Positions 7,223 through 9,761 of a DNA stretch of 64,000 nt are shown piece after piece. The position numbers were made by a program, and so were the translations under genes. The first letter of the stretch is position 1. Each line of letters opens with the position of its first letter. Under the pieces are notes generated by a model. It was not told where the DNA came from. It did not search any database and saw only the letters and a list, made by a program, of their open reading frames with translations. Source of the DNA: Planctomycetota bacterium (GTDB lineage Bacteria; Planctomycetota; UBA1135; GCA-002686595). The DNA is taken from NCBI GenBank assembly GCA_002862085.1, contig PKCK01000061.1, positions 62,001-126,000 on the forward strand, written 5' to 3'.

Positions 7223-8251
7223 TCAGAAGCGCCAGCTGATCCCCGTGTAGAACGTGAGGTCGGGACCCGATGCTGCGACCGCGTCCTCGTGGAAGGAGAA
7301 TCTCAGGGTCGAGGCGCCGGAGAGCTCGTAGGCGAATCCGAAGCCGAGGTCGAGGATCTCGCGATCGATCTCCTCGAAGGGGAGGCTGCGCGTCAGGGGC
7401 ATCTGCAGCACCGCCTGCGCGAGCAGCGAGAGCCGGTCCGACCAGCGGTACTCGGCCCCTCCGCTGACGGAGAAGAGCGAACGCACGTCGATGCCGGCGC
7501 GCTGGAAGGACGCCGGCTGGTCCACGTGGACCCCGTCGACGCCGCCGAAGAAGGTGAATCGCCCGACGCTCCGCTCGAGGATCACACCGGCCGCTGCGTC
7601 GATCCCGCCGCTTCCGGTGCCGCGTCCCTCGTCGCCCGTGGGCAGTTCGATCGTGAAGCGCGCCGCCACCGCAGGGCCGTCGCCGTCCTCCTCGCGGATC
7701 CGTGACACCAACGTGATCGGCAGATCGCCGAAGCGCACATGGTCCTCCGCCAGCTCCCACGCGACCTCGCCGTTCCGCTGGAGGTACATCGAGTACTGGT
7801 CGCTTTGGAACTCGTCGCGTCCACCGCCCACGAAGCCCGTGATCGCATGGAAACCGTCGACGAAACTGTCGAGGAAGCCGCTCGACGCGAACAGCACCGT
7901 CGGTTCGAGGACGACCTCCACGCCGTCGGTGGGGGCGTACTGCAGCGTCAGCGATCCCCGCGCGATCTCCCCGTCGAAGGCCGCCGCTTCGGCGGGTCGA
8001 ACGACGCGCTCGAAGATCGAGGCGTAGAAGATCTCGGCGGTGGCGCGGCCCTCCCCCGCCTCCAGCAGCGCCGCGCGGCGCGGCCTGTTGGCGGGGAAGA
8101 TCAGGCCCGCCGGCTGCATGATCCGCGTGGGGATCGGACCCCGGACGCGCTCCGCGCCCGCCGCGGAGAGCCCCTCCGGCGAGACGCACGACGCGGACAG
8201 CGCGAGACCGGCCCCGACAGCGATCCGGAGCACGAACTCAGCGATCCTCAT
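7223..8251 (-). CDS. DUF3187-like outer-membrane beta-barrel protein
   Basis: The 342-aa precursor has an N-terminal signal ending LALSASC, compatible with lipoprotein or Sec processing. The rest consists of alternating amphipathic strands (SLTLQYAPTDGVEVVLEP, TLRFSFHEDAV) and ends in a C-terminal aromatic (GISWRF), as in outer-membrane barrels. A phrase early in the mature protein (PTRIMQPAGLIFPANRPR) resembles the opening of DUF3187 proteins. The assignment is from memory of that family. Its start overlaps the end of the upstream selenoprotein gene by 14 bp, so the two are probably co-transcribed. Confidence 0.7.
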   Translation of the reverse strand: MRIAEFVLRIAVGAGLALSASCVSPEGLSAAGAERVRGPIPTRIMQPAGLIFPANRPRRAALLEAGEGRATAEIFYASIFERVVRPAEAAAFDGEIARGSLTLQYAPTDGVEVVLEPTVLFASSGFLDSFVDGFHAITGFVGGGRDEFQSDQYSMYLQRNGEVAWELAEDHVRFGDLPITLVSRIREEDGDGPAVAARFTIELPTGDEGRGTGSGGIDAAAGVILERSVGRFTFFGGVDGVHVDQPASFQRAGIDVRSLFSVSGGAEYRWSDRLSLLAQAVLQMPLTRSLPFEEIDREILDLGFGFAYELSGASTLRFSFHEDAVAASGPDLTFYTGISWRF

Positions 8252-9761
8252 CGTTTCCTCCGCGGCCCTGCCCGCCCTCCCCGGCGGCTCCGGGCGTCGG
8301 GAGCTGGATCACGATCTCCACGTCCTGTCGCCTGAACACGCAGCTCCCGTCGGCCTCGCACACCGAGTAGAGGACGTACCCCTGGAGCCGCGCGCTCGCT
8401 GGCGGCGCTCCCGCGCCGACCGGCGGGACCAGGGGAACGGGTGGGGTGGAGACCTCCAGGTCCACGGAGAGGGGCGCCCTCTTCGCGCGATCGCCGTCCC
8501 CGTCGGGCGCCGGGAAACGCGCGCGACGAGCCTCGGAGGTCCAGCCCTCCGGGACCTCGAGCCAGAGCTCGGCGGGATCGGCGTCCGGTGTCCATCCCGC
8601 GTCCTCTCGCGGCCGGAGCGCCACGTGGATCCGCGACGCTCCGCGCGGCGCCCGGACGTTCGGACCCGCAGCGCCGGTGTGCAGGACGACGGCGGTCTCC
8701 ACCCGGACCAGAGCGCCCGCGTCCCGGGCCACCAGCCCGTCCGGATCGGGCTCGACCTCACCGGCCGTACCCCTCGGAACCGCCCGCGACCTCCCGGCGA
8801 CCTCGGCGCCGGAGAGCGGAACTCGCAGCGCCAGCGGCTCCTCGCCCCGCGCCGCGATCTCCCGCGCCGCGCCGTGCACCCAGTCGTAGAAGGGGTAGGG
8901 CTTGTCGAGGCGTGGTCCCCACTGCTGGATGCGCCGGCGCCAGACGTACTGGTCGGGACGCGCCGCCAGAGCCCGCTGCCAGAGGTCCGCAGCGCGCTGG
9001 AAGTCCCCCGGCCGGGGAGCAGGGCCGTCGTGGTCCATGCGCGCGGCCACACCCGCCCGGAAGAGTTCCTCGGGCGAGGACGCGCGATCCGTCGACGCAG
9101 CGGCGGCGTCGTCCGGACGGGGGCCGTAGGGCAGACCGAGCCGGCCTCGGAGTCGCTCGAGCTCCGCTGCGCCGGCGACGCCACCGCGCGACATGCGGAA
9201 CGCTCGCGGCGCGGCCCGGCCCGGGTCGTCCTCGAAGCGGCCGCCCAGGAACTCCTCGACGATCTGCTCCTGGAAGCGCCGCGGGTCGGGGCGCGTGAGC
9301 CGCACGATCCCGTGCTCGTCGACGGCGGTCAGGGCGGGGACCGCGTCGATGCCCGTGAGGTTGAACGGGTCCCAGAGGATCGGGAAGCCGAGCCCCTTCC
9401 AGCGGGCGAAGAGCGCACAACGGTCGGGATGCTGCTCCTGGGTGATACCGACGACCACCAGCTCGCCGCGCTCGACGAGCTCCTTCGTCAGGCCGTGCCA
9501 GACCGGCACGTGCGAACGGCAGCCTGCTCACCACGATGCGAACTGGATCAGGAGGACCCGCTCGCCCCGCAGCGCGGCGAGATCGAAGGACCCGCTGCCA
9601 TCGATGAGGGGGAGCTCGAGGTCGGGGATGCGCTCCCCCACCGTCGTCCAGGCCCCGGCCGCTGGAACGGGAACAGCCTGCGCCGGGCGGCCGTCGACCT
9701 GAGCAGGAGGCCCTTGGCCGAGCGCGACGAGCGCGACGGAGGAGAGGAGAGCGAGGCACAT
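8238..9761 (-). CDS. Thioredoxin-fold (TlpA-like) selenoprotein with UxxC motif
   Basis: Reading from the ATG at 9761 gives a Sec signal (MCLALLSSVALVALG), then a redoxin-like segment IPDLELPLIDGSGSFDLAALRGERVLLIQFASW. The next codon is UGA (9530-9528), and the same frame continues AGCRSHVPVWHGL for another 429 codons. The UGA occupies exactly the first Cys position of the thioredoxin WCxxC motif, giving W-U-A-G-C (Sec78, Cys81). VVGITQE and a WDPFNLTGIDAVPALTAVDEHG strand continue the thioredoxin fold. The downstream ~300 residues are of unknown fold and end with a GYVLYSVCEADGSCVFRRQDVEI segment. A SECIS-like hairpin follows the UGA. ATG 9761 is preferred over GTG 9806 because a TACGCT hexamer ends 7 nt before it. 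The product is 507 aa with Sec. A stop-truncated pseudogene is the alternative. Confidence 0.85.
9489..9526 (-). promoter_or_regulatory. Candidate bacterial SECIS element
   Basis: In the mRNA, immediately after the UGA, CAGGC (9526-9522) can pair with GCCUG (9493-9489), and inside it CGUGCC (9510-9505) pairs with GGCACG (9499-9494). The apical loop is GGUCU (9504-9500), and an 11-nt bulge lies on the 5' side. The loop starts 24 nt after the UGA, within the usual range for SelB-dependent insertion. GGUCU is the same apical sequence as in the E. coli fdhF element, as I recall it. Confidence 0.75.

Follow-up and report, generated by a model that had tools for sequence, protein, structure and literature searches.

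Bacterial thioredoxin-like selenoproteins with a UxxC motif are already well known. The inventory of the prokaryotic selenoproteome holds 119 families or subfamilies (PMC13188914), and a 'Redoxin family protein' with UxxC is listed by PF08534, its motif and an accession (MBA3499694.1 or HEU0032618.1), without architecture (PMC9312934, PMC13188914). According to the deep-Sep study, every known selenoprotein seems to have Cys homologues, and families that lack them may be filtered out (PMC12013277). Here we analyzed a 64,000-nucleotide stretch of a planctomycete genome (the window), which carries on its minus strand a gene with an in-frame UGA in a thioredoxin motif. The encoded protein shares with the inventory entry the Redoxin/AhpC-TSA-type thioredoxin fold and UxxC; compared by the inventory description alone, that entry could be the family described here. 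The thioredoxin domain is followed by a TPR-like and an Ig-like part, and the whole is most probably an exported thiol-disulfide oxidoreductase with Sec78 inserted via the standard pathway, and with a putative intramolecular relay and a presumed partner-binding role of the TPR part.

The gene and its in-frame UGA

The gene and its immediate surroundings comprise the following features.
8238–9761, minus strand: selenoprotein gene of 507 residues, with one internal UGA in frame (Sec78) and the terminator UGA at 8240–8238
9528–9530, minus strand: selenocysteine codon UGA (Sec78), with which the UxxC redox motif begins; UGA in 38/38, 80/80 and 30/30 loci (overlapping samples)
9519–9521, minus strand: Cys81, second residue of the U-A-G-C motif, an invariant column of alignment A1 and the putative resolving residue
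7223–8251, minus strand: downstream gene, DUF3187 (PF11383, 104.9 bits), overlapping the end of the selenoprotein gene by 14 nt

From 9761 to 8238 the frame reads M...FASW-UGA-AGCRSHVPVW... and is open apart from the UGA at 9530–9528. A reading of this DNA made from the sequence alone (the sequence-only reading) had placed this UGA on the first Cys of a thioredoxin motif, W-U-A-G-C, in a frame conserved on both sides. Both statements hold: PF00578 (AhpC/TSA) spans residues 41–132 across the UGA at residue 78, with 40.2 bits against a cut-off of 26, and both flanks are conserved in 36 aligned homologues (alignment A1). The separate GTG-started gene that it expected from standard annotation was indeed called mechanically, as a 423-aa ORF at 8238–9509 after the UGA. 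The DUF3187 gene and the selenoprotein gene likely belong to the same transcript, and their overlap suggests co-translation past the UGA. Within the genus, and in part of the family, DUF3187 relatives lie directly downstream of the selenoprotein gene; as a clue to the substrate, the gene neighbourhood gave no conserved partner beyond DUF3187, and none over a wider taxonomic range.

The full-length family was found in about 40 of 121 related genomes (the window's own genome and 120 others), with UGA in every match covering the site; among same-order relatives these are 38 of the 38 whose match spans it. A one-genome-per-species scan over GTDB yielded 221 relatives, and UGA is present in all of the best 80 of these, which come from Planctomycetota, Acidobacteriota, Verrucomicrobia, Gemmatimonadetes, Armatimonadaceae and Actinomycetota according to their record titles, a few of which may be misbinned. 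In addition, 43 of 392 planctomycete genomes carry the family, again with UGA in every match spanning the site (30/30 phylum loci). The three samples partly overlap. The presence of UGA in every covering homologue is far beyond chance. A sequencing error, a possibility raised at the outset, is excluded because homologues in all genomes seen have UGA at exactly the same site.

The sequence-only reading had also proposed a search for homologues with Cys at the UGA position. All homologues covering the site carry the Sec codon UGA, and the sample contained no full-protein homologue with Cys. Specifically, Cys was absent from the Sec78 site in the spanning matches of the same-order genomes, of the best 80 of 221 relatives, which make up the test for a Cys form outside Planctomycetota, and of the 392 planctomycete genomes; the search of the latter would have favoured Cys forms, because Cys stood at the Sec site in its profile. 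Single-domain thioredoxins with Cys do exist, but no Cys form of the whole three-domain protein was seen. No homologue was found in a plasmid collection.

Second UGAs in the frames of some homologues were considered as a second Sec and rejected, as their coordinates show normal terminators. One short family remnant (L062, G024:C1:819805-820008) reads IASG-UGA-AGC with a further UGA 27 codons on, and is possibly a decaying copy.

Selenocysteine machinery and the SECIS hairpin

The genome of the window (132 contigs totalling 4.39 Mb, with a completeness of 90%) was searched for selA, selB, selC and selD, as the sequence-only reading had suggested, and all four are present. The tRNA-Sec scores 70.8 bits and has the anticodon UCA, selA scores 471 bits, selB 306 bits (334 bits with a C-terminal piece) and selD 321 bits, the last with an in-frame UGA of its own. 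This UGA stands at the usual Sec/Cys site, AACAG-UGA-AAK (L050:2400-2430, G000:C12), and selD is likely a selenoprotein itself. The tRNA-Sec score exceeds the cut-off in 113 of the 121 genomes, and almost all members of this planctomycete order therefore have Sec decoding. tRNA-Sec was also found in 20 of 22 carriers of the family from named genomes, picked mostly from other phyla. Across the 392 planctomycete genomes, with selB counted as present at E <= 1e-80, selB occurs in 42 of 43 carriers vs 187 of 349 non-carriers (one-sided Fisher p = 6e-10, an optimistic value, as genomes kin by descent are counted as independent).

The same machinery bears on a reassigned code, in which the UGA would be read as Trp or Cys. 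The open frame would fit this, and nothing else does; many genes here end at UGA as their ordinary stop, among them the selenoprotein gene itself at 8240–8238, and the genome has the tRNA-Sec with anticodon UCA together with selA, selB and selD. We consider such a reassignment extremely improbable.

Other UGA-containing thioredoxin genes were also observed. A genome scan for TGG-TGA-N6-TGY gave 91 places, and the first 30 of these, read in context, include the window's gene and two more W-UGA-x-x-C thioredoxin-fold genes (C7:64065 and C8:57654). The former reads EHW-UGA-GAC and matches Redoxin with 62.5 bits when read through (L019:1417-2385; match at G000:C7:63951-64370), and it is likely a selenoprotein too. 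The latter, a thioredoxin-like frame open on both sides, reads DFWGDW-UGA-GPCRAMYPHE (L207, G000:C8:57654). TlpA-like genes with W-UGA-GPC occur in the same genus and order (L064 and L065 at G007:C49 and G002:C26, L063 at G075:C365); these match the window's family in the thioredoxin part only.

Behind the UGA of the selenoprotein gene, the mRNA can form a SECIS hairpin.
9494–9510, minus strand: SECIS upper hairpin CGUGCC-GGUCU-GGCACG with a 6-bp stem; 96% of cells paired vs 84% in shuffles, both-side changes 28 vs 10.4
9500–9504, minus strand: SECIS apical loop GGUCU, with a covarying G-C pair 9504/9501 and an invariant G9503

The stem begins 17 nt behind the UGA, within the coding sequence. 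A two-part hairpin with a GGUCU loop had been proposed. Its upper part at 9510–9494, with the loop at 9504–9500, proved to be strongly conserved, but the lower part did not: pairs beyond the six stem pairs form in just 4–31 of 90 sequences. The stem CGUGCC/GGCACG is kept in 90 distinct sequences, in which the two loop-adjoining pairs are invariant and the outer pair varies as C-G, G-C, U-A or U-G. The loop pair 9504/9501 is G-C in 44, C-G in 40, A-U in 5 and A-C in 1 of the 90, so that 89 are Watson-Crick. Position 9504 is the third position of a Pro codon and 9501 the third of a Val/Gly/Ala codon. This covariation is not forced by the protein, because both sites are synonymous; the same Pro-Val is encoded as CCG-GUC or CCC-GUG. 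The mutual information of the two positions is 1.21 bits, vs at most 0.12 for other third positions. On the protein tree, at least 16 changes of pair type are counted. Every independent comparison shows the two bases changing in concert, although the sign test alone, with just 5 comparisons on well-supported branches, gives p = 0.06. For 36 diverse sequences, all of 500 shuffles fell short of the observed values, both in paired fraction and in covariation score, and slid versions scored far lower. In addition, the Val codon in the stem is GUG in 89 of 91 sequences, vs 39–67% for the top codon at other nearby Val-majority sites.

Folding of the mRNA, also suggested by the sequence-only reading, gave an energy not significantly better than that of shuffled sequences (z -1.1 to -0.1). 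Therefore, support for the SECIS element rests on conservation and covariation, which do favour the hairpin. A search of the window with Rfam at gathering thresholds gave no matches, and hence none to a known SECIS family. The E. coli SECIS element has the fixed positions U17, G23 and U24 (PMC8659212). In the present family the second loop position is an invariant G and the third varies (U, G or C). In contrast to U17 of E. coli fdhF, there is no conserved bulged U on the 5' side of the stem. The unpaired U at 9500 after the loop pair is invariant, yet it doubles as the first base of the invariant Trp codon. Taken together, synonymous covariation and stem constraint give coding-independent support for the SECIS hairpin. 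The concerted loop changes (GGUCU, CGGGU, CGUGU, AGGUU) amount to a natural test of how a planctomycete-type SelB reads the SECIS.

These data bear directly on whether the UGA is a real stop, with the gene a pseudogene or two separate genes and the UGA conserved by coincidence or sequencing error. Such a stop would agree with the two pieces produced by ORF callers and with the unremarkable minimum free energy; it is opposed by the UGA in every site-covering homologue over several phyla, the intact frame after it, the full Sec machinery, the synonymous covariation and the co-occurrence with selB. The probability left to it is negligible, and we regard it as already refuted in practice. The locus combines several marks of a SelB-dependent selenoprotein, namely a conserved UGA at a redox site, selA, selB, selC and selD, and a SECIS with G in a small loop. 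On the evidence of sequence, UGA-78 is convincingly assigned as Sec, decoded by SelA, SelB, SelC and SelD with the SECIS hairpin.

Protein architecture and proposed mechanism

The protein can be divided into the following parts.
9702–9761, minus strand: probable signal peptide, residues 1–20, judged by eye from a low-confidence N-terminal helix in the model and hydrophobic N-termini in homologues
9228–9662, minus strand: ResA/TlpA/CcmG-like thioredoxin-fold domain, residues 34–178; PF00578 above cut-off and VIA-align to 3gl3
8850–9170, minus strand: helical TPR-like middle part, residues 198–304; TPR_2 in 12/36 members (best E 2e-6), invariant columns and helices in the model
8301–8714, minus strand: Ig-like beta-sandwich domain with a conserved Cys pair, residues 350–487; AlphaFold2 of the part alone (pLDDT 85.5) and Foldseek
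8340–8360, minus strand: CX5C pair C468...C474 (CX5-6C in the family), at least 90% conserved in alignment A1 and invariant in A2

The AlphaFold2 model, built on 36 sequences, has a pLDDT of 84.6 and a pTM of 0.85. Superposition of the thioredoxin domain against 3gl3 by VIA-align yields a Z of 12.8 and an rmsd of 1.9 over 132 aligned residues. Residues W77, U78 and C81 are invariant, and P142, at the cis-Pro-type loop position, is at least 90% conserved. The fold, the W-[CU]-x-x-C motif and the cis-Pro-type loop of a ResA/TlpA/CcmG-like thioredoxin are thus all found. A peroxiredoxin (AhpC/TSA) was considered and rejected despite PF00578, as the site L-L-I-Q-F-A-S-W-U-A-G-C has no PxxxT/SxxC, with neither Pro at -7 nor Thr/Ser at -3 of Sec78.

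The sequence-only reading held that the whole is not a simple thioredoxin, which is borne out by the TPR-like and Ig-like parts behind the thioredoxin domain. It had described about 300 downstream residues of unknown function ending in a CX5C motif; the motif is present as C468/C474, and these residues proved to be a TPR-like helical part followed by the Ig-like beta domain that carries it. Few stretches of the family are as conserved as the near-invariant block YxWRRRIQQxGPxLDKPYPFYxW in the TPR-like part. When the whole model was compared with known structures, only the thioredoxin part gave matches, and the C-terminal part was then folded and searched separately. Foldseek placed the N-terminal domain of Neisseria DsbD at ranks 2 and 6 (E 0.004 and 0.006, TM 0.24–0.35), with TM 0.24/0.32 for the match at E 0.004. 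VIA-align returned many unrelated Ig-like folds with Z of 6.6–8.7, and no DsbD row among its top 50. Pfam DsbD_N (PF11412) reached E 0.022 at best, in 3 of 35 members, and gave no match for the window's own domain; a PDB sequence search with the C-terminal profile found nothing at E 10. In the predicted model Cys468 and Cys474 end two adjoining strands of the Ig-like domain, with the pattern C-x(3-4)-G-x-C.

Based on these features, we propose the following mechanism. The protein would be exported by its hydrophobic N-terminus, as judged by eye, and the thioredoxin part would reduce or exchange disulfides outside the cytoplasm. Sec78 may act as the attacking nucleophile, with Cys81 resolving the selenosulfide, and the TPR part may bind a partner. 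The pair C468/C474 could pass electrons to or from the thioredoxin part within the same chain, as the N-terminal domain of DsbD serves CcmG and DsbC. Such an intramolecular relay between Sec78/Cys81 and C468/C474 is suggested by the conservation of the C-terminal Cys pair with G-x-C and by the DsbD N-terminal domain among the top Foldseek matches; against it, the likeness to DsbD-alpha is weak, and the scores of other Ig-like folds equal or exceed it. Alternatively, the protein could be an ordinary thioredoxin-like selenoprotein without an internal relay, in which the TPR and beta parts merely bind partners or the envelope and CX5C is a structural disulfide. The equally good matches of many Ig-like proteins and the position of the pair at a beta-hairpin, where structural disulfides are common, would agree with this; the pair is, however, at least 90% conserved over divergent sequences while the surrounding domain is poorly conserved. 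We give the structural disulfide a real chance, though less than an even one, and favour the exported oxidoreductase with its putative relay.

Comparison with known systems

The best NCBIfam match, hit by all 36 members, is NF041054 (WAxxUGC_long, ResA-like WAxxUGC motif-containing protein). It aligns residues 42–276 to model positions 81–314 of 354, i.e. the thioredoxin domain and part of the helical region, and its 354 positions leave no room for the C-terminal domain. The window's protein scores 59.4 bits against a cut-off of 300, and its motif is W-U-A-G-C rather than the WAxxUGC of the model's name. The three-domain family reaches no curated NCBIfam cut-off. A conserved redox enzyme of several phyla is hidden in annotations, as a short fragment and a 'hypothetical' gene, because gene callers split the gene.

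It is nearly an even question, leaning slightly to no, whether this family of exported Sec-thioredoxin with TPR and Ig-like CX5C parts exists only with Sec and has its own electron-relay domain, being lost, not converted to Cys, where Sec decoding is absent. If true, it would run counter to the statement that Cys homologues exist for every known bacterial selenoprotein (PMC12013277), and prediction methods that depend on such homologues may filter out a family like this. A truly Sec-only family would point to a reaction for which cysteine does not suffice.

The C-terminal domain faintly resembles the N-terminal domain of DsbD (DsbD-alpha, PF11412) in its predicted Ig-like beta sandwich and its CX5C pair, which in E. 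coli DsbD is C103/C109. Its sequence match is below any cut-off, and unlike DsbD-alpha it lies behind a thioredoxin domain and is not joined to a membrane domain. The likeness is a weak lead backed by the shared CX5C, and not membership, because the TM-scores are low, unrelated Ig folds score similarly and DsbD_N matches at E 0.022 in 3 of 35 members. TsoB, a rhodanese/DsbD fusion-like selenoprotein (NF045694), is also a selenoprotein with a DsbD-like part and gives a weak match, with a best E of 0.05, in 2 of 36 members; it has a rhodanese instead of a thioredoxin, and the motif UxxxxU (PMC13188914). The thioredoxin-like oxidoreductases ResA/TlpA/CcmG (DsbE) have the same fold as residues 34–178 (best structural matches, Z 11–13), the W-[CU]-x-x-C motif and probable export in common with the window's protein. 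Unlike them, this protein would carry Sec in place of the first Cys, and its thioredoxin domain is fused to TPR-like and Ig-like parts.
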